This document shows positions 6,366-25,762 of a DNA stretch of 39,162 nt, piece by piece; position 1 is the stretch's first letter; each line of letters starts with the position of its first letter. The stretch is from contig MGDH01000010.1 of assembly GCA_001790855.1 (NCBI GenBank), positions 1 through 39,162 on the forward strand, in the 5' to 3' direction. The notes under the pieces are model-generated. The model made no database searches. It had not been told where the DNA came from and worked only from the letters and a program-made list of their open reading frames with translations. This DNA is from Candidatus Schekmanbacteria bacterium RIFCSPLOWO2_02_FULL_38_14. Its GTDB lineage: Bacteria; Schekmanbacteria; GWA2-38-11. Both the position numbers and the translations under genes were made by a program.

Positions 6366-7067
6366 ATGTCATTTAACAAAAAACTGAATATTTCTGCTTT
6401 TTTCCCTTGTTACAATGAGGAAAAGAATCTTGAAGCCTTAACAAGCTCAACTCTAAACTTTTTCCAGACAATTTCAGACCAATATGAAGTAATTATAGTA
6501 AACGACGGAAGTAAAGATAATACCAGAGAAATTGCTGAAACCATAGCAAATAAAGACCCGCACGTAAAAGTATACAATCATGAAACCAATTATGGATATG
6601 GGGCTGCTCTTAAAACTGGATTCAAAAATTCTATCTATGACTATATTTTCTTCACTGACGGAGATAACCAGTTTGATATAAAAGAGATTGGAGGATTGCT
6701 TCCATACGCTGAGGAGTTTGATATTGTAGCTGGTTACAGGATTAACAGAAGGGACAATTTCATGAGGAGATTAAATGCCTGGAGTTTTAACCTTTTTGTA
6801 AGAATACTTTTTGGATTGAAAATAAGGGACTTAAACTGCGCCTTCAAGCTCTTCAAAAAAAAGGTTATAGATTCTATTGATATAGACTCTACCGGAGCTT
6901 TCATAAACGCTGAAATTCTAATCAAGGCTAAGAAAAAGGGATTTACAATCAAAGAAGTTGGAGTAACACACTATCCAAGACAATGGGGAAGCCAGACAGG
7001 GGCAAACCCGAAAGTAATCTTCAAAGCATTTCAAGAGCTTTTTAAGCTGCGTGGGAAGCTTAAGTAG
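6366..7067 (+). CDS. GT2 glycosyltransferase, polyprenyl-phosphate sugar synthase type
   Basis: This 233-residue soluble GT-A enzyme opens with the nucleotide-sugar fold: FFPCYNEEKNL at residues 12-22, VNDGSKDNT at 45-53 and the metal-binding DxD within FTDGDNQFD (Asp98, Asp100). The later RDLNCAFKLF motif is typical of the DPM1 (dolichyl-phosphate mannose synthase)-like subfamily. It has no C-terminal membrane helices, unlike the ArnC/GtrB branch, so it probably works at the cytoplasmic membrane surface. Its expected product is a polyprenyl-phosphate-linked hexose that serves as donor for the GT-C proteins encoded directly downstream. The ATG at 6366 has no good Shine-Dalgarno, but the GT2 core starts only nine residues later, so little alternative remains. 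Confidence 0.85.
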   Translation: MSFNKKLNISAFFPCYNEEKNLEALTSSTLNFFQTISDQYEVIIVNDGSKDNTREIAETIANKDPHVKVYNHETNYGYGAALKTGFKNSIYDYIFFTDGDNQFDIKEIGGLLPYAEEFDIVAGYRINRRDNFMRRLNAWSFNLFVRILFGLKIRDLNCAFKLFKKKVIDSIDIDSTGAFINAEILIKAKKKGFTIKEVGVTHYPRQWGSQTGANPKVIFKAFQELFKLRGKLK

Positions 7068-10773: not shown

Positions 10774-12960
10774 TCACAGAACTTTTCTTTCTTTTATCCT
10801 GTTAAGTATGAAATTTACAACTTTGCCATCCGTGAAATTCTCTTCTACAGCCATTTTGACCCCCTTATAGTAATATCTTTTATCATCTTCATTCAATGTT
10901 TTTTCTCCTTTAATGATTCTGCTAATTTCGTTTTCCAATGCTTCTGAATAGAATTTATTTTCTAATCCGTATCCTTGCTCAGGCTGAAAATATGACTGAA
11001 CAAAGAAATAACCCCAAACCTTTCTTCCATATTCTATGCCAATTCCCTGAAAACAAAATCCCTTATATTTATCTTCAATTTCTTTGATTGCTTTTCCTGA
11101 TTTCATAACCAAATCAGAAGAAAGATACATTCTGGATTCAGCATAGTAAAACTCGAAAGCCATTAATCCTCTCCCAAGTCCGAAATAACATGCAGGTTTA
11201 TACCTGTCATCTACCATATTTATTAAAGCAAGAACCACTGAAATATCCCATTCTGAAGATAACCCGTTATCTAATGAAGAATACCTGTGAAATTGCATGA
11301 GTGCTTCATAAGCCAATCCCTGATAGCAAAAAGCCCTGTAGGGTTCAGGAATCTTTTCAATAAACTCGCTACATCTACTGAGATCATCTTTAAAGAGCAT
11401 AACGCTTGCTCTCCCTATTCCTGAATATAGGTATTTCCTGTATTCAGGTTTGGCTCTATCAATAGCTTTCACTCCTTCGCTAATGTTTCCTCTGAAGATC
11501 TTTCCAAAATCAATCCCTATTAGCTCATAATATTCAGGAATATATTCCTTATCCATCCTTCCTATTAAATGGTTTATCCTTTCAAATTTATCCCCGCGGT
11601 TCTTTATATACCTTGGTAGAAGTTCATCGTAGTGATACCCTTTAAGAATAAAACCTTTCCCGATTTCATCAAATCTAATAAGCCTTAAATTGCTGTAAAG
11701 ACCTGCAGCTATCAAAAACACAAAAGTAAGCACGGATAATATTTTTAGGACAGTATTATTAAACTCTGACCAGATTGTTTTTAGTCCTAATGTAATCGTA
11801 AGAAATATGAATGGATAAAGGGGAGCATAATACCTGTATTTGGAAACATCAAACCATTCAAGCTCGACAATCTTCGGGTTATAGAATCCGCTGAATGTAA
11901 AAATGGATAAAAATATTATGATGTAGGTTACAGGGAGGAGTTTTTTCAGGCTTTCTTCACTGGGTTTCAGGTTGTTTCCAACAGGATGGGATTTATTTCT
12001 TAATTTTTTGTTTAACGGCATTAAATAAACAAAAAGAAAAACCAGAAAAGAAAAGATAAAAACGAAATAATATAAGTATGAAATAATATCTATGCTATCC
12101 CACCCGATACCGAATCCAAAAGACAAGGGGACATCTTTTAAAAATATCTGGTAAAATTTTTTAGTGAGGTAACTTATGTTATATTTGTAATCGACTTTTG
12201 CGAGGAATTCATCTGAGAATAACTTGAACCCGTTTACATCCCTTTGATACAGGTTATAGCCTATCCATGGAGAAAACCCTGCAAAAGAGCCTGCAAGATA
12301 GATAAAAAAAGATTTTTTCAGGAAAAAGCCTTTATCCCAAATGAACCATAACGCAAAAAGTGTAATTATGGTTATCAGGGATATATATGAAAAATATATT
12401 GAGAATCCGCTCAGCAGTCCAAAGAGCAAAAAATAGCTGTTTTTCACAGGGTTACTTTTTTTGTCTGCGTAAATGATTTTAAAAAACAGGATGATTGCAA
12501 TGATTGTAAAGAAATTAGATTCGCAGTGATTCCCCCAGGCTATTAAAGATACTTTTGAATAAAAAGGCGGCGCGAGGATAAAGAAAACAGAGAAAAGAAG
12601 CGCTATTGAGCGGGAGAAATATTCATCTAAAAACTTATACCAGAGAATAAGTGTTCCCAAAGAAAAAAGAAGTGATAAGAGCTTAAGGGAAATAAGGGAA
12701 GGCCCAAACAAAAAGAAAAACGGTGCTGTTAAAATTCCTGAAACGAGCGTGCCTCCTGAATGGGGATAAGCCTGGTAGTCATAGAGAGGCATTTTTACCT
12801 TTCCGCTGACTATATCTTTTGTTATACAGCCGTTGGTTCTTTCTTCATAGGCAAATATTTCATCTATATTTGTAAAGAGTAAAGAGAGGCGCAGGAATAA
12901 AAAGAGGGAAATAATACCTATTAAAAAAATATATTTCCTTTCTTTTCTTTCTAAGTTCAT
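10774..12960 (-). CDS. GT-C membrane protein with C-terminal YxGxG repeat array (paralog 1 of 3)
   Basis: The protein has 728 residues from the ATG at 12960, which has a good AGGGAAGAG ribosome site and lies 14 bases after the SGNH stop; the frame stays open to 13059, but that part lies inside the SGNH gene. Residues 1-430 are a GT-C core with an acidic YEER motif in the first outer loop (Glu39-Glu40), a PFFFLFGPSLISLK segment and the closing YYAPLYPFIF helix. Residues 469-728 hold about six divergent repeats of 34-60 residues starting near 469, 503, 537, 583, 628 and 689, each with a core such as YRKYLYSGIGRA or YKGFCFQGIG. I do not recognise this repeat as a named family; it looks alpha-helical, like TPR or Sel1. 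The same layout recurs in the genes at 16515 and 23249. Confidence 0.78.
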   Translation of the reverse strand: MNLERKERKYIFLIGIISLFLFLRLSLLFTNIDEIFAYEERTNGCITKDIVSGKVKMPLYDYQAYPHSGGTLVSGILTAPFFFLFGPSLISLKLLSLLFSLGTLILWYKFLDEYFSRSIALLFSVFFILAPPFYSKVSLIAWGNHCESNFFTIIAIILFFKIIYADKKSNPVKNSYFLLFGLLSGFSIYFSYISLITIITLFALWFIWDKGFFLKKSFFIYLAGSFAGFSPWIGYNLYQRDVNGFKLFSDEFLAKVDYKYNISYLTKKFYQIFLKDVPLSFGFGIGWDSIDIISYLYYFVFIFSFLVFLFVYLMPLNKKLRNKSHPVGNNLKPSEESLKKLLPVTYIIIFLSIFTFSGFYNPKIVELEWFDVSKYRYYAPLYPFIFLTITLGLKTIWSEFNNTVLKILSVLTFVFLIAAGLYSNLRLIRFDEIGKGFILKGYHYDELLPRYIKNRGDKFERINHLIGRMDKEYIPEYYELIGIDFGKIFRGNISEGVKAIDRAKPEYRKYLYSGIGRASVMLFKDDLSRCSEFIEKIPEPYRAFCYQGLAYEALMQFHRYSSLDNGLSSEWDISVVLALINMVDDRYKPACYFGLGRGLMAFEFYYAESRMYLSSDLVMKSGKAIKEIEDKYKGFCFQGIGIEYGRKVWGYFFVQSYFQPEQGYGLENKFYSEALENEISRIIKGEKTLNEDDKRYYYKGVKMAVEENFTDGKVVNFILNRIKERKVL

Positions 12961-12974
12961 TCTCTTCCCTTGAG

Positions 12975-14147
12975 TCAGAAAATAATCCGCGAAGCTTCCA
13001 TAAACCTGTAAATTTCCTCTGCTGCAATCCTGTGGGCTTTGGATCTCCAGTGGCCCCATGAGTAGAGACCATTGTCAGATTTTGCTTCCTGCCTGAGTTT
13101 CGGCAGAAGGTCAATGACCATTATCCCGTCTGAATTAAGCCTTTCCGCAAGCAGGGAATTTAAACTTTCCATATTATAATTTCTTTTATTAAGGTGATAT
13201 TCTGTCATGAGTCCATCAAAAGATGCTTCATAAACCTGAAAACCTGCCGGGATTAATACAACTACTACCCCTGCACCTAATTTTTCTGATTCTTTTTTTA
13301 TCTCTTTTATTATGCTCACAGTAAGTTCAAAACCCTTTTTATATTTTTCCGGCAGTGGATTTTCAAAATAGGGAAAATTTTCCATATCGAGTATTGCATA
13401 TTGGCTGTAAAATTCGCTTATTCCCCATTTCCACAGAAGATTTTCGATTCTTGATTTAATTAAGAAATAGGCAAGGCTTTTTTCTTTTAAATAGCGGTCA
13501 ATATGGCAGAAAAGAAGGGCAGGGAATTTTCTTTCAAGGTCTTCATCTATTTTATTTTCAATATAGATGTCATAGAGAAACCCGTTGTCCTTTACCCGTC
13601 TTCTTTTAACCCCGCCTATCTGGTTGTCCAGAAAATCGTTTCCTACGTAGAAACCTACGAGAACCAAATCTGGCTTGTAATATTTCCCATCCTTTTTTAA
13701 AACACGGAGTTCCTGGTCATTGCCATATCCCGGCACGCCGATATTTATAACCTCAATATTCTTCCCAGTATATTGTTCCTTAAGAATTCTCTCTAGGACT
13801 TTGGCGTAAGTCTCTTCCATTTCAACGCCCTCGCCAAAAGTGAAGGAGTCTCCCAAGGCAAGAATTTTTAAATCAGTTTTTTCATTGGCGTTATACTCCC
13901 TGTCCCTTAAACCTCTTGAGTTAGTAATCAGCCTGTGACCCTCAAAGATTGTAGAGAGATTTGGCTTCAGGCAATAGCCTGAAGCCTTATTGTTCTGGTA
14001 AACGTCCCTGTTAGCAAAATCTCCAAAAATATTTTGCAGTCTACCCTGAGGGATAAGCCTTAAGGAGATTTCTATCACCAAAAGAATAAAGAAAGCAGCA
14101 GCTATTGCCAGAGCAAAACTGCGGATTGTATTTTTTAATCTTTGCAT
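12975..14147 (-). CDS. Membrane-anchored SGNH/GDSL-like hydrolase or acyltransferase
   Basis: This 390-residue protein has an uncleaved-looking N-terminal hydrophobic helix (residues 10-30), then NSRGLRDREY and the block I motif ALGDSFTFGEG (residues 97-107, nucleophile Ser101). This arrangement is common in envelope-associated SGNH proteins that add or remove acyl groups on glycans. A block III-like LVGFYVGNDF segment follows. At the C-terminus the His motif reads WGHWRSKAHRIAAEEI (H366, H372), where relatives usually have an acidic residue just before G-H-W; here it is Trp364, so the catalytic triad may be altered. The gene is 71 bases after the PIG-L gene and 14 bases before the GT-C/repeat gene, so the three form a minus-strand operon. 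I infer O-acyl trimming of the same glycan. Confidence 0.82.
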   Translation of the reverse strand: MQRLKNTIRSFALAIAAAFFILLVIEISLRLIPQGRLQNIFGDFANRDVYQNNKASGYCLKPNLSTIFEGHRLITNSRGLRDREYNANEKTDLKILALGDSFTFGEGVEMEETYAKVLERILKEQYTGKNIEVINIGVPGYGNDQELRVLKKDGKYYKPDLVLVGFYVGNDFLDNQIGGVKRRRVKDNGFLYDIYIENKIDEDLERKFPALLFCHIDRYLKEKSLAYFLIKSRIENLLWKWGISEFYSQYAILDMENFPYFENPLPEKYKKGFELTVSIIKEIKKESEKLGAGVVVVLIPAGFQVYEASFDGLMTEYHLNKRNYNMESLNSLLAERLNSDGIMVIDLLPKLRQEAKSDNGLYSWGHWRSKAHRIAAEEIYRFMEASRIIF

Positions 14148-14218: not shown

Positions 14219-15658
14219 TCATAGCCAGTCTGTAGGGGCAGAGCTTGTCTCTGCCCTTTGCGGGCAACCGCAAGGTTCGTCCCTGATATCTACCAATAAT
14301 TTCTGGTTAATCAGCCTTCCGGCTGCGAAAAAATTCCAATAGTTAAATGATAACACGCAGAAGCTTCCCATTTCTTTTATTTTAAATTTTCCCACTGTGT
14401 AAAAGCATTTTATCCAATGTTTAAACTTGAACCATAAATTCCCCTTGTCATAGTAATCAAAAGGTATTGGGTAATCTATTGGCCAATCCCACCATTCCTC
14501 CTTATCTTTTACAAATTGGTGAAGCCAGGAATGTTTGATTTCCTCTTTGCAGCTGCTTTGGAAATAGTCATCATAAAGCTGGGTTGCATAGCAATTGATT
14601 AGCCCGTGCTTAACTGTCTTAAAATCTTCATCAAGTGATATTGTGCCATTTGGGCCTGCGCCTAAAGTCGTTTCTTCCCATGGTATTTTTTTGCAGTTAT
14701 CCGTAAAATCTCTGACAGCTAATTCCGGGCTTTGAGGGTCCGGATATTCTTCTTCCTCGCGGGCTTTCTCAGGCAGGTCATAGTGAATCAGATATCTGTG
14801 TATCTTTATATGGTCAACATCAGGATTTCCTTCCCTTTTTAATTCCTTAACGGCCTTCCTTAAAAACAATAAGGATGCTTTATGGTCAGAATGAAAATCA
14901 AACTCATGGGTTACAAAAATATCTGTAGGTCTGAAATCTGACAAGATTTTTTTAAGGTCGCTAATTATATAATTTCTATTATAAAGCGGTTTTTCTCCAA
15001 GATAAATTTTATAATGATAGCTGTTTTTATAGGGAGAACTGTATCCACTTTTTGTATGCAGTACCATAGTAAAATTAAAACCCTCTTTCAGATAAATGTC
15101 ATTATAGTCACAGTTGTATATTCCCCAGAGTAATCCATCAGGATATCCTAAAAAGATTATATCTTTTGGTTTAAGTCCGAGTTTACCCATTGCAGTAAAG
15201 GTTTCATGCTGGCGTATATAGCCATAATCAACAAAATCAATATCGCCGTCTTTATCATAGTCATAAACCGTGTTGCCCTTGGGCCTGAAGAGGAGGTCTC
15301 CATTGGTAATCAGGACTATTTTAACCGGATTACCCTGTCTGATAGTTTCTGAAATCACCATCGCGCAGCCCAGGGTTTCATCATCCGGATGAGGGGCAAT
15401 TATTAAGATTCTGCTTTTAGAAAATTTCTTTGGTTGCTTTGTTTCATCTGAAAATCCCCCTGAATCCCCCTTTGACAAAGGGGGACTAAGGGGGATTATA
15501 CCTTTATCCTTTGTTCCTTGTTCAGACAGGTTTGTTACACCATAAGCTAAATTTCCATTGATAATTTTAGAAGAGATGCTTAACTGAAAAGGCATCAGGA
15601 TGGCTAAAGAAAATATTATGGTTCTAAGAATGGCAAACCTGTAAAACGAGAACTGCAT
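14219..15658 (-). CDS. Secreted PIG-L (LmbE-like) de-N-acetylase with inserted EF-hand-like loop
   Basis: This 479-residue protein has an N-terminal hydrophobic signal (about residues 8-30). The PIG-L core begins with ILIIAPHPDDE (residues 84-94; His90 and Asp93 as zinc ligands, Asp92 as likely base) and ends its active site with EFDFHSDH (His256, His259). The family removes the acetyl group from N-acetylglucosamine-type sugars. Just after TNGD (residues 118-121) there is a perfect calcium-loop pattern D133-x-D-x-D-G-x-I-D-x-x-D144. Residues 54-70 come from a palindromic DNA repeat inserted in frame, and the last 24 residues are encoded by another repeat, so the true ancestral end was probably near residue 455. 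About 390 residues match the C-terminus of the fusion gene at 16515. Signal and calcium loop fit an extracytoplasmic enzyme. Confidence 0.87.
   Translation of the reverse strand: MQFSFYRFAILRTIIFSLAILMPFQLSISSKIINGNLAYGVTNLSEQGTKDKGIIPLSPPLSKGDSGGFSDETKQPKKFSKSRILIIAPHPDDETLGCAMVISETIRQGNPVKIVLITNGDLLFRPKGNTVYDYDKDGDIDFVDYGYIRQHETFTAMGKLGLKPKDIIFLGYPDGLLWGIYNCDYNDIYLKEGFNFTMVLHTKSGYSSPYKNSYHYKIYLGEKPLYNRNYIISDLKKILSDFRPTDIFVTHEFDFHSDHKASLLFLRKAVKELKREGNPDVDHIKIHRYLIHYDLPEKAREEEEYPDPQSPELAVRDFTDNCKKIPWEETTLGAGPNGTISLDEDFKTVKHGLINCYATQLYDDYFQSSCKEEIKHSWLHQFVKDKEEWWDWPIDYPIPFDYYDKGNLWFKFKHWIKCFYTVGKFKIKEMGSFCVLSFNYWNFFAAGRLINQKLLVDIRDEPCGCPQRAETSSAPTDWL
14232..14292. repeat. Double-hairpin repeat forming the 3' end of the PIG-L gene
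   Basis: GGGCAGAG (14236-14243) pairs perfectly with CTCTGCCC (14249-14256), and a second stem brings together GGGCAACC and GGTTCGTCCC (14262-14283). The TAGGGGCAGAG...CGGGCAACCGCAAGG pattern resembles repeats found between genes in many environmental genomes. Here it encodes the final residues of the PIG-L protein, whose stop lies just beyond it. Confidence 0.7.
15453..15497. repeat. In-frame palindromic element, copy 1
   Basis: AATCCCCCTGAATCCCCCTT on the left mirrors AAGGGGGACTAAGGGGGATT on the right around a short centre, giving a 45-base near-perfect palindrome. It lies inside the PIG-L gene and encodes IPLSPPLSKGDSGGFS-like residues in the linker between signal and catalytic domain, without breaking the frame. 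Copy 2 is at 25166-25209. Confidence 0.9.
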
Positions 15659-15705: not shown

Positions 15706-15737
15706 TTGACTTGTTTTTTATTAAAGCATGATATATT
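15706..15737 (+). promoter_or_regulatory. Candidate promoter for the GT2 gene at 15766
   Basis: TTGACT (15706-15711) is followed after 17-20 bases by overlapping -10-like sequence TGATATATT (15729-15737). A ribosome site AAAAGG (15755-15760) precedes the ATG at 15766. The 107-base gap to the divergent PIG-L gene must also contain that gene's promoter. Confidence 0.38.
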
Positions 15738-15765
15738 AATTTTAAAAAATTTGCAAAAGGATTAT

Positions 15766-16512
15766 ATGAAATCACTTTCAATAATTATTCCTGCTTATAA
15801 TGAAGAAAACAGAATCTTACCCACTCTCAAAGCCCTGGATGATTTTTTCAGAAAAAATAATTTTTCTTATGAGATAATAATAGTTAATGATGGCAGTCTT
15901 GATTCAACTGTGAAAGTTGTGGAAGAATGTAGGAAGAGCAATCCAAATCTGCATCTGAAATTAGCGAACCTTGAAAGAAATATGGGCAAAGGGATGGCTG
16001 TTAAAAAAGGAATTGAAGAAGCACAGCATGACATAATCATGTTTTTTGATGCTGACCTTTCCTGCGAACCCTCAAATATTAAAAGGGCATTTTCTTATTT
16101 TGAAAATCCTGACATTGATATTGTCATAGGCGACAGGAATCATAAAGATTCTGAAATAGTGAATCCTCCTTCTTTTTTACGAAGAATTTCGGGCAAGATT
16201 TATGCATGGATGGTAGGCAAATTTATCCTTAAAGGGATAACTGATTCCCAGTGCGGATTCAAAGTATTCAGGAAGGAAGCTGCAAAAAGAATTTTTAGAA
16301 AAACTACTATTCCGCGTTTTGGATTTGATGTAGAATTATTATATATTGCTAATAAGGCAAATTTCCGGATAATGAAAATGCCTGTAAGGTGCATAAACTC
16401 TCCTGGGTCAAGAGTTAAAGTCATCTCTGATTCTTTGGTTATGTTTAAGGATCTTTTTATCATCAAAGCCAATGACAGGAAAGGGCTTTACGATAATATA
16501 GGGAAATATTGA
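15766..16512 (+). CDS. GT2 glycosyltransferase, ALG5/DPM1-like polyprenyl-phosphate sugar synthase
   Basis: The protein has 248 residues from the ATG at 15766, six bases after AAAAGG; the frame is open back to a TTG at 15706, but that is part of the promoter-like region. GT-A motifs are IIIPAYNEENRI (residues 6-17), IVNDGSLDST (39-48), RNMGKGMAV (71-79) and the DxD in FFDADLSCEP (Asp95, Asp97). The ITDSQCGFKVFRKEA motif is typical of dolichyl-phosphate glucosyltransferase (ALG5)-like enzymes. It has no membrane helices of its own. It most likely loads glucose or a similar sugar onto polyprenyl phosphate for the surrounding GT-C proteins. It ends two bases before the stop of the convergent fusion gene at 16515. 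Confidence 0.86.
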   Translation: MKSLSIIIPAYNEENRILPTLKALDDFFRKNNFSYEIIIVNDGSLDSTVKVVEECRKSNPNLHLKLANLERNMGKGMAVKKGIEEAQHDIIMFFDADLSCEPSNIKRAFSYFENPDIDIVIGDRNHKDSEIVNPPSFLRRISGKIYAWMVGKFILKGITDSQCGFKVFRKEAAKRIFRKTTIPRFGFDVELLYIANKANFRIMKMPVRCINSPGSRVKVISDSLVMFKDLFIIKANDRKGLYDNIGKY

Positions 16513-16514
16513 GT

Positions 16515-19500
16515 TTAGGATGTTACAATTTGCGGATTTATACGCTCGTTGAAGAGAAATCTTTTCCCCTGTAGTTTTAAAGCTCTTAAAAAATTTTTAA
16601 TAGAAAATATAATTCTGTCCCTTTTACCCAACAGGTCGAGCTGGGAAAGGGGGACATTAAAATCTGTCGGAAGGTCCCACCACTCCTCTCTATCTTTTAC
16701 AAAGAGTTGCATCCATGAATATTTTGTTTCTTTAATGCAAGGATGTTGAACTTTTGATACAGTATTTGGGTTTTGAGTTAAATAACAACCTATTACTTCA
16801 TATTTAAGTTTTTTAAACTCAGAGCTTAATGGGATAAAACCATTAGGAGGATACTTTGTTATTGTATCTTCCCACTTTATGCGATTGCAATTTTTATCAT
16901 CTCTTACTCCAAGCCTTAGATTATCCGGATCGGGGTAATTGTTTTTGCCAGCAAGATGGATTAAGTACCTGTGGGTTTTAATTCGAAAAGCAAACTCCTT
17001 GTTCAAATTTTTGAGATCCTTCAGAGCATTTCTCACGAAAAGAGGAACTGCCTGATGGTCATGATGAGTATCAAACTCAGAAGTAACAAATATATCCGTA
17101 GGTCTAAAAGCTTCAAAAATTTCTTTTAAGTCATTTATAACATAATCCCTTGAATACAATGTTCGCTCGTCAGAATAAGCCAATGAGTGATAAGCGTTTC
17201 TGTAAGGGGAAAAACTTGTATTCCCGCAAGTTATCACAGGAGACATTTTAAAAGGCTTTTTTATGTCATAATAGACCCTGTCATATTCACAATTATAAAG
17301 CCTCCATAAATTACCATCTGGATAGCCTAAAAAAATGATATTATTACGTTCAAGACCTAGTTTCCCCATAGCTTTTATTGTCTCTTGTTGTCTTATATAA
17401 CCGTAATCTACATAATCAATATATCCATTATGGTCAAAGTCATACATTTTCTTTTTGTCAATAAAAAATAAGCGATCTCCGTTAGTCATGAGGAGAAGCT
17501 TGGCCGGATATCCTTTTTCTACTGCATCTGAAATTACCTTTGCACATCCCAGAGCTTCATCATCAGGATGTGGTGCAATTACAAGAATCCGTTTTTCTTT
17601 ATTTTGAATCAGAATATTTCCCTTTTTTAATCCTTCAAAATAAAAAGCTTCATATTCTCCGGGTATTCTGTTAGAAAGATAGTCCCCAATGGTACTGCTT
17701 TTAAATACTTCTCCAATTGCTTCTCCAAAACCCTTATAAGCACTGCCTCTGAATTCTTTTTCAAGCCCGCTCATCCAGTAAAATGATTTGTCCGCATAGT
17801 TATCAAGCTCTTTAAAATAATACTTTCTTAATTTTGGATTTATCTCTTCTAACTGAAACAAATTCAGTCTGACCCCGTTTAAAGAATCCCCGATTCCTTT
17901 GCCAATTCCTTCATAACAATATTTCCTGTGTTCAAGGGGAATATCTTTTATATATTCCTTTTTGACTCCATTTATCTGGTAATAGAATGGGTTTAAACTA
18001 ACAAGAGAGTATCCAAATCCAAAATAGAAATAAGTCTTGAAATCATCATCAATATTTTTCAGAAAAATGTCTGACAACTCTGTATTGCGCGGTTTGGACT
18101 TAATCCTTGCCATACATCCAAGAGCTTCATAGCAAAAAGGCTTGTACTCTTGCGGGACCTTGTTTATAAAGCTAAAAATCTTTTCAAGGCTTGCCCTATT
18201 TTTTGAAATATAAAAACTTGCTATCTCCCTGAAGGCTCCGTAATAAAAATATTTTCTGCAGTCCTTTTCAATTTTTTCTGCCACTTTATTAACTTGGAAA
18301 ATATTATTATGATTTACATCCAATACAGTCTTTATCCCAAAATCTTCTGCTCCCAATGGCTTATACTCTTCTTTAAAATTATTTAATTTTGCAGCGATTT
18401 TATCAAAGTCTTTATTTGGAAAAATAAATCTTCTAATATAAGGTTCAACCCAGTATCCTTTATGAACCAGTCCGCTTGCAAAGTTTTTATTTAAAGATAT
18501 AAAAGCAAGATTACTGTATAACCCAATAAGGCAAAGAAATACTATAACTGATACTCCTATAAAAGTTTGTATTTTTTTTCTATCTTTGAAAATAATTTTA
18601 TCGAACGCAACAGAAATAACAGCAAACAGGAAAGGAAACAAAGGAAGAAGATATCTGTAATAATTTAAAGATTTATATACCTGGTTTGTTCCTCGAACAA
18701 AATTAGGAGCTCCAAATTCGCTTACTGTAAGAATCAAGAGAAATACAATAGTAAATATTATCAAAATAATTTCTTTAGAAACAGATGATGGTTCAATTTT
18801 AAATTTTTTAAATGGCAAAAGAGCCAATAAGAATTTCTTAATAAATGCTTTATTTTTATAAACCAATACCAGAAAAGACAGTAAAGTTATTATATGGTAA
18901 ACAGCAGAGAAGATACTAATATCCTTTCTCAGCAGAATCCCCATGAATTGGAAAGACTCAGGAATACCTAATATTATCAACCTAATAAATTTCTTGATTA
19001 GAAATAAAAGTGTGTTAGCAGGTATATAAGGCTTGTTGTATAGATAAAGATTAACATGCTTTGCGGACAGAAGATAGAGAATCATTGGAAAAAGACCAAC
19101 AATAATGCCGGCAGAAAAAGCTACATACCCAAACTTAGGAAAACTATTTTTATCACTGACATGCCATATAATAAAACATGAGATTAAAGTAATAAGAGAG
19201 GTATAACCATAAAACATTCCAAATCCTAACAAAATGCCCAAAAAAGTAATTTTCACATATAAACGTGTAAGTGTCTTTTCTTCCATAGAGTTATTTCTCA
19301 ATAAAATTTTGTAAAAAAGAAAAATTGTACCAATAATAAATAGGTTAATCTCTATATGCAAAGCCCACGAAATCATATTGTTAAGGGTGAAATAAGGAGG
19401 AGATAAAATATATAAGCATGAAAAGCATACCGCTGCTTTTCTATTAAAATAAGTATCTAAAAAAAGAAACCATAGCATTAATGTTCCAAGTGAGAAAAAA

Positions 19501-19790
19501 CAAAGAGGAAGAAGCTTTAGCGAAATAAGAGAAGTTCCAAAAGTGTAAAAAAAAGGAACAGCCAGAATCGCTGATATTAAATGACCTCCATGATTTGAAG
19601 TATATAGATAGAAAAAGAAAGGAAGCTCAATTTCTTTATTAATAAGATTATAGGCAAGAAAGCCCATCGGGCGTTCTTCATACATATCGCTGATCTTGAT
19701 ATCTGAAAATAAAACGAGCAATCTGAATAAAAGGAAGGCTACAGCAATAACACATAAAGTTAAATACCTTGATTTTTTTTTATTTAACAT
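16515..19790 (-). CDS. GT-C + YxGxG repeats + PIG-L de-N-acetylase triple fusion (paralog 2 of 3)
   Basis: This 1091-residue protein has three parts. Residues 1-430 are a GT-C membrane core (MYEER at 36-40 in the first outer loop, FGTSLISLK at 84-92, YYRYLLPLFPF at 377-387). Residues 471-722 are about seven helical repeats with cores such as HRKYCYEGIGKGIG and FRGSAYKGFGEAIG. Residues 733-1091 are a complete PIG-L domain: RILVIAPHPDDE (734-745), an EF-hand-like loop D784-x-D-x-N-G-x-I-D-x-x-D795, IIFLGYPDG, and EFDTHHDH with catalytic-type histidines. The catalytic part is paralogous to the stand-alone PIG-L at 14219. Fusing a putative polyprenyl-sugar transferase to a deacetylase suggests the sugar is added and de-N-acetylated on the outer side by one polypeptide. 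It lies 30 bases downstream of the GT-C gene at 19821. Confidence 0.83.
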   Translation of the reverse strand: MLNKKKSRYLTLCVIAVAFLLFRLLVLFSDIKISDMYEERPMGFLAYNLINKEIELPFFFYLYTSNHGGHLISAILAVPFFYTFGTSLISLKLLPLCFFSLGTLMLWFLFLDTYFNRKAAVCFSCLYILSPPYFTLNNMISWALHIEINLFIIGTIFLFYKILLRNNSMEEKTLTRLYVKITFLGILLGFGMFYGYTSLITLISCFIIWHVSDKNSFPKFGYVAFSAGIIVGLFPMILYLLSAKHVNLYLYNKPYIPANTLLFLIKKFIRLIILGIPESFQFMGILLRKDISIFSAVYHIITLLSFLVLVYKNKAFIKKFLLALLPFKKFKIEPSSVSKEIILIIFTIVFLLILTVSEFGAPNFVRGTNQVYKSLNYYRYLLPLFPFLFAVISVAFDKIIFKDRKKIQTFIGVSVIVFLCLIGLYSNLAFISLNKNFASGLVHKGYWVEPYIRRFIFPNKDFDKIAAKLNNFKEEYKPLGAEDFGIKTVLDVNHNNIFQVNKVAEKIEKDCRKYFYYGAFREIASFYISKNRASLEKIFSFINKVPQEYKPFCYEALGCMARIKSKPRNTELSDIFLKNIDDDFKTYFYFGFGYSLVSLNPFYYQINGVKKEYIKDIPLEHRKYCYEGIGKGIGDSLNGVRLNLFQLEEINPKLRKYYFKELDNYADKSFYWMSGLEKEFRGSAYKGFGEAIGEVFKSSTIGDYLSNRIPGEYEAFYFEGLKKGNILIQNKEKRILVIAPHPDDEALGCAKVISDAVEKGYPAKLLLMTNGDRLFFIDKKKMYDFDHNGYIDYVDYGYIRQQETIKAMGKLGLERNNIIFLGYPDGNLWRLYNCEYDRVYYDIKKPFKMSPVITCGNTSFSPYRNAYHSLAYSDERTLYSRDYVINDLKEIFEAFRPTDIFVTSEFDTHHDHQAVPLFVRNALKDLKNLNKEFAFRIKTHRYLIHLAGKNNYPDPDNLRLGVRDDKNCNRIKWEDTITKYPPNGFIPLSSEFKKLKYEVIGCYLTQNPNTVSKVQHPCIKETKYSWMQLFVKDREEWWDLPTDFNVPLSQLDLLGKRDRIIFSIKNFLRALKLQGKRFLFNERINPQIVTS

Positions 19791-19820: not shown

Positions 19821-21641
19821 CTATTTAAGATTACGATAAATCCAGAAATTCATTGGGTAACCACCGCCTTCACGGCTGTAACGATGGATTATTTTTTCAA
19901 TACCAGCAGGGTCTGAATTTTTTCTTCTTTCAATCACAATGTCGAAACCAAAAATATATTTCCCAATATTTTCTATAACCTTTCTCTCGCTGCTAGCAGT
20001 ATCAATAAGAATAAGTTCCCCAACTTCCGGAGAAGTCGTAACAATTATATCATAATCATTATCATTTAATTTTTCATTCGAACCAACCTCTTCTAATATT
20101 ACATTCTCATTAATAGGATACATAAGAAGAGGATAAGAACCGTAAGGTCTGCCATAAAGCTTAGAATCCAATGAATAAGCCTGCCAGTATTTAAATCCTA
20201 TTTTTTCACCAGGAATTGAAGCCTTTGAAAGCTTTTCAGCCATCAGGAAAAACCCGTTATCAGCGGCACGTATCTTGTTAAGGCTATAGACATACAGATA
20301 TTCCTTCACAAATAAAACTATAAACAGCAAAGATGCAGCTACATAAAAAAACATACTCAAAATCCTAAAACTATTCTTAAAATTATCAGCAATACTCTTC
20401 ACATAATCAAAAACATCACTCAGGAGTAAAGCACCTATAATGGAAAATAGCGGAAAAAGATGGAGCATATATCGCACATACCAGACCTTCCAGATTCCTA
20501 TGACAAGAAATCCAAATATGGCTGGAAGAGCTATAAAATCCCATGCTTTTTTATATTCAAGGAGTTCATTACTTTTAAAGGCTTTAAATGTAAAATAAAG
20601 TAGTCCCGGGAGTAATAAAATAACAAGATAATGAGATAAACCAAAACCGTATATCTCTTTTAGATAGTAAACATATCCGGATAATGGAAACATTTTAACT
20701 CCCGGTGAAAACTGAAGCACTCCTTCACCAAGTGTTTCCTTGGTTATTTCTATCATAAAAAATGTTTTTAAGAAGTTTTTAAAATGAAAAATAATATGCG
20801 GGAATATAATGATAAATGAAAATAGTGTGGAAAAAAAGAACACAGTGATATTTTTAATAATATCATTATCCTGAAAAATATTTTTAATATAATTTGAAAA
20901 ATCTTCCTTTCTTTTGATTAAATAAACAAACGACAGAATAATTAAAAGAATAGGTACAATCAAATAAATCCCTGTCTTTAAAAGCCTTACAGCAAGCCAG
21001 AAAAGATATGTCAGAAGAACTATATTAAGATAAAAATATCTAACTTCTCTTTTCATCGTTTTTTCACTGGCTGAAAGAACCAGGAAAAGAGGGAAATAAA
21101 TTAACATATAAAACTTTGATGCGATTGATAACGCATAAAATATGCCTGCACAGATTAGATATCTGCTCTTTCCGGACCTGGAGTTTTTTATTAAATAAAT
21201 TAATGATAAAAGGAAAGTAAGCAACACAGGGTTCTCTGAAAGTATTCTGTGAGAAGAAACATTAAAGTATGGAGATATAAGGAAAAAAAGAGAAGAAATA
21301 ATTGCAACTTTTAAAGGGAAAAACATCAATGCGAGATAAAATGTTGCAACAAGCGATATTGCTCCCATAATAAGCTGGCAATACCTTGCCACAAAAAAAC
21401 TCATCCCGCTCCCTGAAATACTTGCACAGATTTCTGTAATAATTGGATTTACAATTCCGTGGTTAAAAAAACTTTCAGAGAAATGTCCGTGCTTAAACAA
21501 TTTCATACCGCTCCCATACTCAAAAAATTCATCCATGAAAGCCTGATATCTTGCTGTGTGGCAAAGGGAAAAGTAGAGAGCAACAATAATAAATAATCCT
21601 AAATATTTTACTGATTGATTATTGATAGCACGTTTTGACAA
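19821..21641 (-). CDS. GT39-like GT-C membrane glycosyltransferase
   Basis: This 606-residue polytopic protein has the first outer-loop acidic pair in YQAFMDEFFEYGSG (Asp37-Glu38), followed by a GIVNPIITEI segment. About eleven to twelve helices reach residue 460, interrupted by a Lys-rich cytoplasmic loop near 245, then a 130-residue soluble tail (GFKYWQAYSLDSKLYGRPYG). The layout matches GT39/GT83-type enzymes using polyprenyl-phosphate sugars. It has no YxGxG array, unlike its neighbours at 16515 and 23249. It is probably transcribed with the fusion gene 30 bases downstream; the 147-base gap upstream of its start could hold a promoter. Acceptor unknown. Confidence 0.78.
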   Translation of the reverse strand: MSKRAINNQSVKYLGLFIIVALYFSLCHTARYQAFMDEFFEYGSGMKLFKHGHFSESFFNHGIVNPIITEICASISGSGMSFFVARYCQLIMGAISLVATFYLALMFFPLKVAIISSLFFLISPYFNVSSHRILSENPVLLTFLLSLIYLIKNSRSGKSRYLICAGIFYALSIASKFYMLIYFPLFLVLSASEKTMKREVRYFYLNIVLLTYLFWLAVRLLKTGIYLIVPILLIILSFVYLIKRKEDFSNYIKNIFQDNDIIKNITVFFFSTLFSFIIIFPHIIFHFKNFLKTFFMIEITKETLGEGVLQFSPGVKMFPLSGYVYYLKEIYGFGLSHYLVILLLPGLLYFTFKAFKSNELLEYKKAWDFIALPAIFGFLVIGIWKVWYVRYMLHLFPLFSIIGALLLSDVFDYVKSIADNFKNSFRILSMFFYVAASLLFIVLFVKEYLYVYSLNKIRAADNGFFLMAEKLSKASIPGEKIGFKYWQAYSLDSKLYGRPYGSYPLLMYPINENVILEEVGSNEKLNDNDYDIIVTTSPEVGELILIDTASSERKVIENIGKYIFGFDIVIERRKNSDPAGIEKIIHRYSREGGGYPMNFWIYRNLK

Positions 21642-21788: not shown

Positions 21789-23192
21789 TTACCATGTCGT
21801 ATAAAAAATTATTTCAAAAATAAAAGTCTGGATAAAGGTTAAGGATAATAACTGGATGTCAAAGTGATTTTGAGAGCTAATTTTAGAAAAATAATTAAGA
21901 AGTTCTATTACAGGTAAAATCATGAAAAGGGCGAGAAACATCCATACCCTGCCAGTCTCAAAGAAATATAATCCGCCAAGGTTCATTTCTAAAAGAGTTA
22001 TGATAAAGGCATAGATACAGTATCTAAGCATTTTATTACTATTACCTTTTGCTCCTTCTTTTTTAAAAAGATATTTGAACCAGAGCCATGAGGTAGCAAA
22101 TCCGCTGAAGAAAAAAAACCCAACAAAGTTTGAGGTCCTCGATAGGAGATAAATTCTCCATTCCCGCAGAGGTGAACCATAACTCATCATATCCTTGTCT
22201 CTTGCCCGGTCAAGGCAGTCTAATATATTATAGCCAGCAAGATAAAAGGCTAAGGCATAGATTGCACAGAAAATAAGGCCTGAGATAGTTATAAAAAATA
22301 GCACTCTCTTCCAGCTTTCGTCTTTCTTATATAGCAACGTGCCGGTCATTATGATGAAAAAAAGGCCCTGATAAGTTGCAGAGAAGGTCATAAACATTGC
22401 AATTGAAAGAGCGATCCCGTTTGCTATAGCCAATAAAAGCATGTTCTTATTCTGGATTAGAAATTTGAAAAAAAAATAAAATGGCCATAAAAGGAAAAAC
22501 ATTAAAACACCATCCATGCATGTAGCACTGTAGATAGCTATGTTAGGAGTCAATATCCACAACAAGACTGCTAATCGTGCGAGCAATCTATCCAGAAACA
22601 GTTTTGCCGTTAAATAAAAGGGGATTAAGCTTAAGTTAGTAACAAGTATTGATATCAATGATGCCCTGAGGACCCCTTTGCCAAAGGTCCGCTCGATTAC
22701 ATGCAGAAAAACATCTCCACCCGGAGGATGGGTATTTGCATGATGGGAAAGATTCGGCATCATATCGACATAATCTCTTATGAAGCTCCTAAGCCCATTG
22801 ATTTTTGGGAGATCTGCATAATATTCGTAGGGAGTGGAAAGGAAGGGGTGTGAAATGGCATATATAAAACCATTATTCGTTGAAGCAAGAAAGATATTGA
22901 AACAGAAAACTAAGCCCAAAGAAACCAGAAGAAAGGAGAAGTCATCAATCTTCCGGAAGTAATCTTTTTCCCATAGATAGAGGATAATTAAAAATGTTAA
23001 TATTGTGAGAAAAACATAGGCAGGACTCGCAGCAAATTGTGGCCATACAAGCAATGCAGTTTCATAGACCAGGCGTCTGAACTGGTCGCCCATCCATACC
23101 TGGAGAAAAGAAAAATAAGCGACTGTGATCAGAAAGACAACAACAGTTCCCTTTATAAACTCATACCATTTTATCTTTTGTGTTTCTGTCAT
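21789..23192 (-). CDS. GT-C-like membrane protein with THPPG motif
   Basis: This 467-residue protein is almost entirely hydrophobic, with about twelve helices and little tail. A conserved outer loop reads LSHHANTHPPGGDVFLHV, and THPPG is a recurring motif in uncharacterised GT-C glycosyltransferases of bacteria and archaea. The typical D-E pair near the N-terminus is not obvious, so the catalytic acid may lie elsewhere (for example in DYVDMMP). Its start is 56 bases downstream of the paralog 3 gene on the same strand, consistent with an operon 25762 to 16515. The perfect 12-base palindrome TTATCCGGATAA (21770-21781) lies just after its stop. Function beyond a probable lipid-linked sugar transfer is unknown. 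Confidence 0.7.
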   Translation of the reverse strand: MTETQKIKWYEFIKGTVVVFLITVAYFSFLQVWMGDQFRRLVYETALLVWPQFAASPAYVFLTILTFLIILYLWEKDYFRKIDDFSFLLVSLGLVFCFNIFLASTNNGFIYAISHPFLSTPYEYYADLPKINGLRSFIRDYVDMMPNLSHHANTHPPGGDVFLHVIERTFGKGVLRASLISILVTNLSLIPFYLTAKLFLDRLLARLAVLLWILTPNIAIYSATCMDGVLMFFLLWPFYFFFKFLIQNKNMLLLAIANGIALSIAMFMTFSATYQGLFFIIMTGTLLYKKDESWKRVLFFITISGLIFCAIYALAFYLAGYNILDCLDRARDKDMMSYGSPLREWRIYLLSRTSNFVGFFFFSGFATSWLWFKYLFKKEGAKGNSNKMLRYCIYAFIITLLEMNLGGLYFFETGRVWMFLALFMILPVIELLNYFSKISSQNHFDIQLLSLTFIQTFIFEIIFYTTW

Positions 23193-23248: not shown

Positions 23249-25762
23249 TTAGTACTTTATTTTTAAATGAAAATAATAATAATAATTTTGTTTTGAAAGA
23301 AGGAAATCTTCTTCAATCCGTTTTCTGATTCCTTCTTTACAAAAAACCTTATAAGTTTTTTCAATTTTATTTAATAATCCATCAATCCTTTCTGGGTCCC
23401 ACCATAGCATATACCCGATTCCGCTTCCAAGTCCTTCATAGCAATATCTTCTGCCTTCTTTATCAATGGATTCAATGCAACCAACTGCTTTATTAAAATT
23501 AGACCCGTATTTCCAAAATAAAGCTTCTCCCAGTGCATGATAAAGATAGAATCGATAAGTTATATCCAAGCTCTGAATAATTTTAATTGCTCTGTTTATA
23601 TCATTAATGAAAAAACTGCCGGCAAAAGTGCCAGCCCCTTCATATAAATAACTTCTGTATTTCTCAGGGATTATTTTAACTGTCGCTTCAAAACTACCCG
23701 CAGACTCCCATAAAAGCCAAGCCATACATTTCCCCAAAGCCTTATAGAAATCTCCTCTGTATTTTTCCGGGAGCTTATCTATCCGTTCAACTAAAGAATT
23801 AATATCTTTTCCTGAGTATTCAATTTCTAAATCCTCAAATTTTGGCTGATAATCATTGCTAAAGTGATTTAGCAATCTTAAAGATTTATTTATCTCATCA
23901 TCTGTTTTAAGTTTAACATATCTTCTTAAAAGACTTCCAAGTTCCATACAAAATAAATTTTTATATTTTTCATCTGCTTTTTCTATTAATCCTGATAACT
24001 CTACAATCTTACTATCCTCTCTTTGCAGAAGATTAAAATTTATTTCGTCAAGAGTTAAAGAATGGCGCATTCCATTAGCAGCTCCCTGATAAAGAGGAAG
24101 TTTCAATTTTTCATCTAAATTTTTAATTTTATCAAAAAACCAAGGTAATATGTCTATATCCCTTCCAAAATATGAACCAAACCCCCGCAAAGCAACGATT
24201 TTATACTGGTCATGAAGTCTCTCTATCAATTTAAAACCTTCCAAAGGCTCCTCCCTGTATCTTTCAGCAAATTTTTCTCCCATAATGAAATAGTCAGAAC
24301 CGCTGTAAAGAAAAACTTTCCCAAAATCTACAGGACTGACAAGTTTAAGATAGCTCAAACCACAAAGGGAAAGAGCTATTAACAAAATAAAAATACTTAA
24401 ACCTTTTTTGAGTACTTTCTGCCTTTCAGAACCCCAGAGGCTATCAAGAAACAAAGCTATAGTTGCAAAAACAAAGGGGAAGAGAGGCGTAAAATACCTG
24501 AAAGATAAATAAAAAAATTTGTCATAAAATGTAAGAATATAAGCCTCTGATAAAACCTTTTTAGAAACTTCAAATTCAGATACAGTAAAGAGTAAACAAT
24601 AGAAAATAGGGAAAACAAGCAAAACTACTTCATTTGAAATTTCCTGAGGAAAGGTTTTAAACCTTTTGAGCGGGAATATTCCGAAAAATAATTTTTTTAA
24701 ATATTTTCTATTTGCTTTTAGTATAAAAATAAATGAAACAAGAGCTATTAAGTAATAGAGATATGCATCAAATGTAGTCCCTTTAATACCCTCAAAACCA
24801 AATGAAAACGGTATTCCTGTCACTACCATCCTGAATAATTTGGTAGCAAAGGCTTCTCCACTCTCAATCAGATATATTGGCTTGCCATGAAAATCAAAAC
24901 TCCCGAGCTTAAAAGAGATTGTATTATAAATCCATGGGCTGAAACCAGTCAGGAACCCAACAACAAAAATTAAAAATGACTTTTTAAAAAAAAGCTTTTT
25001 ATCAAAGATAAACCAGAAGATGAAAATTGTTAAAAAGGTTGCAAAAAAAGTCAGAGCAAAATAGCAGGCAAACCCGCATATAAGTCCGAGAAAGAAAAAT
25101 TTCACTCCATCAGATTGTCCTTTGCTGTCATTGTGAGCAACCTCAGTAACCGAAGAATTCTCAAAAATCCCCCCATCCCCCCTTTTACAAAGGGGGGTAA
25201 TGGGGGATTGCTTTATAGCTTTATCCTTAGAAGAAATGTTATCAGAAAAGAAGATATTATAAAAGAGAAAGAGGCTTGCTATCGTAAAAAAATTTATCTC
25301 ATAGTGGTTCCCCAGAGAAAGAAGGGAAAATTTGAGATTATTTGGTGGTGTTATAATAAACAATAAAGAAGCGATTATGGCAATTCTTGAATTAAAAAAT
25401 TTATCAAGAAAAATATACCATAGGATAAAACCTCCAAATGAAAGAATCAAAGCTGTTATTTTCAGAGAGATGTAGGAGGAACCAAAGATTAAAAAAAAAG
25501 GAGTTGACAGCAAGCCAACAACCATTGCGCCAGGTGCATAAGGCTGGTGCTGATAATAAAAGAGTGGCATTTTTAGACCGTTCAGAACTTCAAGGGCTAT
25601 TGTGCCATTATACCTTTCCTCTTCCATTATGAACGGCTCAAAATTAAGGAATAAAGGAATCAGGCGGGAAAGTATAAAAAGGAGAGAAAGAGAAAAAATT
25701 AATATTCCTTTTCTCCCCTTATAGGGCTGTGAGACTTTTATTGATACAGTGTCAGATGCCAA
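23249..25762 (-). CDS. GT-C membrane protein with C-terminal YxGxG repeat array (paralog 3 of 3)
   Basis: The 837-residue protein aligns with the genes at 10774 and 16515. It has an EEER motif (residues 47-50) in the first outer loop, TPFFLIFGSSYISLK, SLGNHYEINFF and the closing RYFTPLFPFVFATIALFLD helix (about 422-440). Residues 505-825 are repeats such as YRSYLYEGAGTFAG and GRRYCYEGLGSGIG. Between helices, residues 173-220 form a loop about 30 residues longer than in both paralogs. The extra part is encoded by the palindrome at 25166-25209 and a flanking stretch resembling a CATTGTGAGC-type repeat, so mobile DNA enlarged a tolerant loop without breaking the frame. It is the first gene of the minus-strand run down to 16515. 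Function: putative polyprenyl-sugar transferase with a periplasmic helical-repeat domain. Confidence 0.77.
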   Translation of the reverse strand: MASDTVSIKVSQPYKGRKGILIFSLSLLFILSRLIPLFLNFEPFIMEEERYNGTIALEVLNGLKMPLFYYQHQPYAPGAMVVGLLSTPFFLIFGSSYISLKITALILSFGGFILWYIFLDKFFNSRIAIIASLLFIITPPNNLKFSLLSLGNHYEINFFTIASLFLFYNIFFSDNISSKDKAIKQSPITPLCKRGDGGIFENSSVTEVAHNDSKGQSDGVKFFFLGLICGFACYFALTFFATFLTIFIFWFIFDKKLFFKKSFLIFVVGFLTGFSPWIYNTISFKLGSFDFHGKPIYLIESGEAFATKLFRMVVTGIPFSFGFEGIKGTTFDAYLYYLIALVSFIFILKANRKYLKKLFFGIFPLKRFKTFPQEISNEVVLLVFPIFYCLLFTVSEFEVSKKVLSEAYILTFYDKFFYLSFRYFTPLFPFVFATIALFLDSLWGSERQKVLKKGLSIFILLIALSLCGLSYLKLVSPVDFGKVFLYSGSDYFIMGEKFAERYREEPLEGFKLIERLHDQYKIVALRGFGSYFGRDIDILPWFFDKIKNLDEKLKLPLYQGAANGMRHSLTLDEINFNLLQREDSKIVELSGLIEKADEKYKNLFCMELGSLLRRYVKLKTDDEINKSLRLLNHFSNDYQPKFEDLEIEYSGKDINSLVERIDKLPEKYRGDFYKALGKCMAWLLWESAGSFEATVKIIPEKYRSYLYEGAGTFAGSFFINDINRAIKIIQSLDITYRFYLYHALGEALFWKYGSNFNKAVGCIESIDKEGRRYCYEGLGSGIGYMLWWDPERIDGLLNKIEKTYKVFCKEGIRKRIEEDFLLSKQNYYYYFHLKIKY
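25166..25209. repeat. In-frame palindromic element, copy 2
   Basis: This 44-base near-palindrome has AATCCCCCCATCCCCCCTTT on the left and AAAGGGGGGTAATGGGGGAT on the right, the same family as 15453-15497. It encodes about 15 residues (SPITPLCKRGDGGIF) in a loop of the GT-C protein. The adjacent bases 25095-25160, including CATTGTGAGCAACCTCAG, resemble a second common intergenic repeat, so this may be a compound insertion. Confidence 0.9.

Follow-up and report, generated by a model that had tools for sequence, protein, structure and literature searches.

The window analysed here is a stretch of 39,162 nucleotides of Candidatus Schekmanbacteria bacterium RIFCSPLOWO2_02_FULL_38_14 (contig MGDH01000010.1). 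At positions 16515..19790, its minus strand carries a single ATG-started open reading frame (ORF) of 1091 amino acids, exactly where the first-pass annotation had placed one polypeptide; the plus strand across the same interval is stop-rich. The gene and its parts are laid out as follows:

16515..19790, minus strand: fused gene, GT-C domain, helical repeats and PIG-L domain, 1091 aa
18498..19790, minus strand: GT-C-like membrane domain (residues 1-431), 11 predicted transmembrane (TM) helices, N-in/C-out
19674..19679, minus strand: Glu38-Glu39 in the first outer loop, candidate GT-C catalytic carboxylate by analogy with GT-C enzymes
17607..18497, minus strand: helical-repeat domain (about residues 432-728), YR.YCYEGLG-type repeats, common to the paralogues, predicted outside
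16518..17591, minus strand: PIG-L domain and C-terminal extension (residues 734-1091)
17556..17570, minus strand: HPDDE motif (residues 741-745), putative zinc ligands H741 and D744 and catalytic D743 by analogy with MshB
17403..17441, minus strand: EF-hand-type loop DFDHNGYIDYVDY (residues 784-796), an insertion in the PIG-L domain
17055..17066, minus strand: HHDH motif (residues 909-912), H912 being the putative third zinc ligand by family analogy

The following genes of the window are also considered below:

6366..7067, plus strand: second GT2 of the polyprenyl-phosphate-sugar synthase type (best NCBIfam model ArnC, 86 bits, below cut-off)
10774..13059, minus strand: GT-C and repeat paralogue without PIG-L
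14219..15658, minus strand: secreted stand-alone PIG-L paralogue with a signal-like N-terminus
15706..16512, plus strand: GT2 of the polyprenyl-phosphate-sugar synthase kind, convergent neighbour of the fused gene
19821..21641, minus strand: GT-C gene (PMT_2), 30 bp upstream of the fused gene
21789..23192, minus strand: GT-C gene (PMT_2), on the strand of the fused gene
23249..25762, minus strand: GT-C and repeat paralogue without PIG-L

The product of the gene at 14219..15658, previously described as a secreted stand-alone paralogue, indeed combines its signal-like N-terminus with a PIG-L domain (73 bits in Pfam) that is 50% identical to the fused one. The two GT2s of the locus are candidate makers of a polyprenyl-phosphate sugar donor. 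The GT2 encoded at 15706..16512 lies outside the operon of the fused gene; its best NCBIfam models include PgfS, ArnC, PgaC and PpgS, all below cut-off, with PpgS as the fifth-best family (61 bits for a cut-off of 370).

The Pfam PIG-L model (PF02585) matches residues 736-922 of the fused protein (E=9.6e-22, 78.3 bits for a cut-off of 28.2). The domain is complete in its motifs, as had been noted from the translation, with APHPDDE at residues 739-745 and EFDTHHDH at residues 905-912; the AHPDDE and HxDH signatures are intact (H741, D743, D744, H909, D911 and H912). A Foldseek search with the predicted structure of this region retrieved 42 chains at E 2.5e-6 to 4e-4, all with the PIG-L fold and most of them named deacetylases. 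They include diacetylchitobiose deacetylase (Dac), BC1534, BshB and MshB (E 2.5e-6 to 1e-4), as well as teicoplanin deacetylases and GalB (5cgz). The PIG-L domain of the fused protein is most likely a sugar deacetylase, whose catalysis and substrate we infer. It shares its fold and its metal and catalytic motifs with the PIG-L/LmbE zinc deacetylases Dac, MshB, BshB and teicoplanin Orf2, but differs from them in belonging to an exported subfamily, in a longer C-terminal extension, in the EF-hand-type insertion and in the fusion to a GT-C domain. The pattern defining this insertion (of the PROSITE PS00018 type) occurs in all four PIG-Ls of the host's order and is absent from 26 other relatives, and it matches at most 15 of 5000 shuffled sequences; the Pfam EF-hand_1 model gives the loop a non-significant E-value of 0.29. 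The insertion may be a calcium loop, which would fit a location outside the cell.

Pfam analysis of the N-terminal part of the fused protein alone detected no model at 0.01. Among 13 homologues of this half, seven match PMT_2 (E<=0.01), and the paralogue encoded at 10774..13059 passes the PMT_2 cut-off narrowly (26.4 versus 26.1). Residue E39, located in the first outer loop (residues 29-70, net charge -2.8), is invariant in 13 family members. The predicted topology follows the GT-C pattern (8-13 TM helices, N-terminus inside, large first outer loop with an acidic residue), with 11 helices predicted. The membrane domain is classified as GT-C by its family instead of by its own score; the earlier designation as a GT39-like GT-C stands at the family level, on the PMT_2 matches and E39, and does not stand on the fused protein's own Pfam score. 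The structure model has a mean pLDDT of 63 for the whole protein and 43 for the GT-C crop; the top six PDB matches of this low-confidence crop are GT-C oligosaccharyltransferases, at non-significant values (E>=0.1). A search of the sequences of solved structures with the GT-C profile yielded no match. The repeat array, already recognized in the first reading, also occurs in the paralogues, and its fold search returned solenoid matches only, at chance level.

Averaging the topology over 13 homologues gave 11 helices and an outside C-terminus, with a net loop charge of +11.5 for the inner and +2.5 for the outer loops. This charge bias and the number of helices place the repeats and the PIG-L domain outside. 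The close stand-alone PIG-L relatives are secreted, and together with the charge bias this disfavours a cytoplasmic PIG-L in the fused protein. The PIG-L domain is thus predicted to face the non-cytoplasmic side, in agreement with what had been assumed before a topology prediction was run.

Two PIG-L genes were found in the 2.68 Mb assembly, the fused gene and the secreted paralogue, and the fusion is known from this single assembly. In another genome of the same order (G002), two tandem genes encode GT-C and repeat proteins of 707 residues, whose alignment ends at residue 708 of the query, and two stand-alone PIG-Ls have signal-like N-termini. Phylogenetic trees place the fused PIG-L with the stand-alone secreted PIG-L of G002 contig C2 (support 100/98) and join the GT-C half to the tandem pair of G002 contig C4 (support 98/99), so the sources of the two halves are unlinked in G002. 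In the family alignment, the final repeat of the fusion (about residues 700-725) corresponds to the natural C-terminal repeat of the paralogues, and the PIG-L core starts about 8 residues after it. No hydrophobic stretch or signal peptide was detected at the joint, and residues 673-768 contain no in-frame ATG, GTG or TTG.

One could suppose that an assembly chimera or a sequencing error united two genes, since the fusion appears in one assembly only, the two halves are separate in G002, and PIG-L is absent from a genome of the same family that is 70% complete (G001). Against such an error, the frame is continuous, the joint falls at a domain border after a natural last repeat, and base composition is even across the gene. 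Had two adjacent genes simply been joined, the signal peptide and the start codon would still be present; both are gone. Moreover, the paralogues within the genome are just 33% and 50% identical, too divergent to mislead an assembler. On these junction features and this divergence, we consider an error very improbable. With its last repeat kept, its signal peptide lost and no start codon at the junction, the gene looks like a true lineage-specific fusion, and the earlier reading as a single polypeptide, rather than as a pair of genes run together by a simple error, is borne out by the natural last repeat and by a separate orthologue for each half.

The subfamily PIG-L profile (E below 1e-60) matches 26 places in 386 genomes across Bacteria, among which only the fused PIG-L of the window lies in a frame of about 1100 residues. 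No PIG-L fused to a multi-helix transferase was detected in 80 GTDB loci. The subfamily is present in 94 of 285 Omnitrophota genomes, where the longest PIG-L frames correspond to PIG-L-GH3-PIG-L proteins (L201-L202, with the same layout by reading in L200 and L203). Other fusions associate PIG-L with GNAT (GNAT-PIG-L, L204) or with the unrelated membrane enzyme PEMT (L128). The long PIG-L frames of L119, L158 and L162 were discarded as spurious N-terminal extensions, judging from their translations.

Among 388 relatives of a Candidatus Udaeobacter genome, we identified a 917-aa ORF (L240, G755:C121) in which PIG-L (78.8 bits) is followed by a GT-C domain (PMT_2, 39.4 bits), each above the Pfam cut-off. 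As in the window protein, both domains are on one ORF. Unlike the window protein, L240 has its PIG-L first and without a signal peptide, so that this PIG-L is probably cytosolic; no repeat domain was noted in L240. By its domain arrangement, L240 is a separate fusion of opposite order. Our surveys revealed no second GT-C-then-PIG-L fusion, and a literature search, with most subscription journals outside its scope, returned no paper on a GT-C/PIG-L fusion. The first-pass annotation had regarded the architecture as undescribed. This holds for its domain order and outside PIG-L, which were not seen again; it does not hold for the combination alone, which recurs in L240 and in GT-C/PIG-L operons. 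What appears new here is the domain order and the outside placement, both domain families and other PIG-L fusions being already known.

A GT-C gene directly adjoins PIG-L on the same strand at four Omnitrophota loci (L041, L069, L203 and L209) and one Udaeobacter locus (L087), L041, L069 and L087 belonging to the set of 80 GTDB loci, assembled without regard to such adjacency. Such adjacency concerns about 5 of the 98 loci examined and is suggestive only, since Omnitrophota genomes contain 2-18 PMT_2 places each, so that, by our estimate, about one adjacency is expected by chance. A stronger case for the GT-C/PIG-L link, judging from gene order, is the Udaeobacter set, 20 loci taken regardless of their neighbours: in half of them (10/20), a PMT_2-matching gene is located immediately upstream of PIG-L on the same strand, with a gap of at most 50 bp or an overlap. 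Seven of these 10 genes score above the cut-off, some narrowly, and three below; an unscored multi-helix gene occupies the upstream position at two further loci of the set. The genomes of this set are probably related to each other, and the loci are therefore not independent events. Their operonic PIG-Ls, which come from a more distant PIG-L group and have no signal peptide, are probably cytosolic, on the opposite side from that proposed for the fused PIG-L of the window.

Links to GT2s were also observed. At L232 and L235, a multi-helix gene is followed by PIG-L and then, about 90 bp after PIG-L, by a GT2, and L012 (genome G024) encodes a PIG-L-GT2 fusion, with the GT2 after a GT-C relative (30% identity to the GT-Cs of the Udaeobacter set). 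The GT2s of L232, L235 and L012 all score best against PpgS (122, 126 and 80 bits, respectively, for a curated cut-off of 370).

We lean towards the view that the window protein is a fusion of a GT-C polyprenyl-phosphate-sugar transferase with an exported zinc PIG-L deacetylase, so that a hexosamine would be both made and transferred outside; we infer both activities, which sugar is donated and to which acceptor, the sequence of steps and the coupling. A GT2 of the locus would load an N-acetylhexosamine onto polyprenyl phosphate, and the resulting polyprenyl-P-N-acetylhexosamine would be flipped. The tethered PIG-L would then strip the N-acetyl group outside, with a slight preference on our part for the lipid-linked sugar before transfer over the just-transferred sugar as its target. 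The GT-C domain would pass the sugar on to an acceptor at the surface, which the repeats would hold, and a surface glycan would thereby gain an amino sugar with a positive charge. Deacetylation and transfer would thus take place on one chain, on the outer side.

Fusion alone is no proof of coupling, since PEMT, GNAT and GH3 are fusion partners of PIG-L as well. In the main rival explanation, PIG-L swapped its signal peptide for a ready-made exported anchor and trims N-acetyl groups from surface glycans at large, uncoupled from the sugar that the GT-C transfers. The secretion of the close stand-alone relatives, the single N-terminal TM helix of many distant ones and the PIG-L joined to PEMT in L128 agree with such tethering; on the other hand, PIG-L shares operons with GT-C in Omnitrophota and in Udaeobacter-related genomes, and the reverse-order GT-C fusion of L240 brings no export. 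We regard tethering alone as rather unlikely. More doubtful still is a scheme in which PIG-L deacetylates the acceptor polymer, e.g., a GlcNAc-rich glycan, creating a site for a neutral sugar from the GT-C. The closest solved folds do include a chito-oligosaccharide deacetylase, and the PIG-L-GH3-PIG-L fusions of Omnitrophota suggest N-acetylhexosamine oligomers as substrates for some relatives, but the association with PpgS-like lipid-sugar synthases favours a lipid-linked donor. Finally, the PIG-L fold family includes the hydratase GalB and amidases, and GalB itself is among the fold matches; with deacetylases ranking above GalB, motifs intact and sugar-transfer genes as company, we give hardly any credence to a function other than sugar deacetylation.

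The fusion reading can be compared with known routes to surface amino sugars. In ArnC/ArnD/ArnT and FlmF2/NaxD/FlmK, a GT2, a deacylase and a GT-C act in series on a polyprenyl-P sugar. Their deacylases, the NodB-type deformylase ArnD and the YdjC-type deacetylase NaxD, are stand-alone proteins that probably work on the cytoplasmic face. These lipid A pathways follow the same logic with unrelated deacylases, whereas the PIG-L of the window is fused and predicted outside. Another GT-C enzyme is Rv3779. The published pathway closest to our proposal is the galactosamine route of mycobacterial and corynebacterial arabinogalactan, in which PpgS makes polyprenyl-P-GalNAc, which is flipped and deacetylated by factors reported as unidentified in 2022, and Rv3779 transfers GalN outside the membrane (PMC9671496). 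The GT2s that other genomes encode in an operon with PIG-L, or in fusion with it, score best against PpgS, though well below its cut-off. The window differs from it in that PIG-L is part of the transferase, which is a separate protein in the PpgS/Rv3779 pathway, and in that the GT2 encoded at 15706..16512 gives slightly better matches to PgfS and ArnC than to PpgS.

More tentatively, PIG-L may be the dedicated deacetylase of widespread, undescribed lipid-carried hexosamine pathways (PpgS-like GT2, PIG-L and GT-C), the window protein being a fused, outside-acting, single-chain deacetylating glycosyltransferase of a type that could fill the mycobacterial gap. If this is true, production and delivery of a charged amino sugar outside the membrane would be the work of one enzyme, and the fusion would serve as a Rosetta stone for a set of lipid-sugar synthase, deacetylase and transferase that occurs in operons or other fusions in unrelated bacteria. 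It would also designate an enzyme class to test for the unassigned galactosamine step of mycobacteria and corynebacteria (PMC9671496) and provide a natural scaffold to put amine handles on glycans. The AT3-SGNH acyltransferases (PMC7448272) are also two-domain membrane-bound modifiers of surface sugars; they differ in adding acetyl groups and in having domains unrelated to GT-C and PIG-L.

The whole 2.68 Mb source genome (G000) contains matches to PMT_2, a GT-C family, at 25 places, and at least eight of its genes share the layout of the fused gene in which a GT-C membrane domain is followed by helical repeats. One GT-C paralogue within the window (10774-13059) has a listed start that overlaps an upstream gene for an SGNH/GDSL-type hydrolase (12975-14147); its real start probably lies near 12960. 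The same surface-glycan region also includes:

1769-3844, sulfatase-family enzyme

In G002, a genome of the same order in which the two halves of the fused gene are encoded separately, the stand-alone orthologue of the fused PIG-L domain (L004:1495-2661, contig G002:C2) presents NSNH in place of the HxDH motif, and its function is possibly impaired.

PIG-L domains were also observed together with GT2 and GT-C transferases in other bacteria. At one locus (L012, identical to L152; G024:C15), PIG-L is fused to a GT2 resembling the polyprenyl-P-GalNAc synthase PpgS, and this fusion overlaps a gene related to the GT-Cs that adjoin PIG-L in relatives of Candidatus Udaeobacter. In L232 and L235, an apparent single operon combines a GT-C (or an unscored multi-helix gene), PIG-L and a PpgS-like GT2. 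An 877-residue ORF (L226:2520-5153, G685) carries an acyl-transferase domain (PF00698) ahead of the GT-C lying upstream of PIG-L.

PIG-L is also fused to other kinds of module. Four Omnitrophota loci (L200, G537; L201, G615; L202, G555; L203, G401) encode single ORFs of ~1050-1283 residues in which a GH3 glycosidase domain lies between two PIG-L domains, a layout checked with Pfam in L201 and L202 and by reading in L200 and L203. PIG-L is joined to a PEMT-type membrane methyltransferase in L128:1-1713 (G380:C135), and another genome from the same small phylum (L167, G388) has a long frame that looks similar. On a short contig, an exported-type PIG-L is preceded by a fused GNAT acetyltransferase domain (L204:2344-4362, G645), and in Geomonas sp. 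Red32 (L045, 7785-15752) a PIG-L domain opens a 2655-residue ORF.
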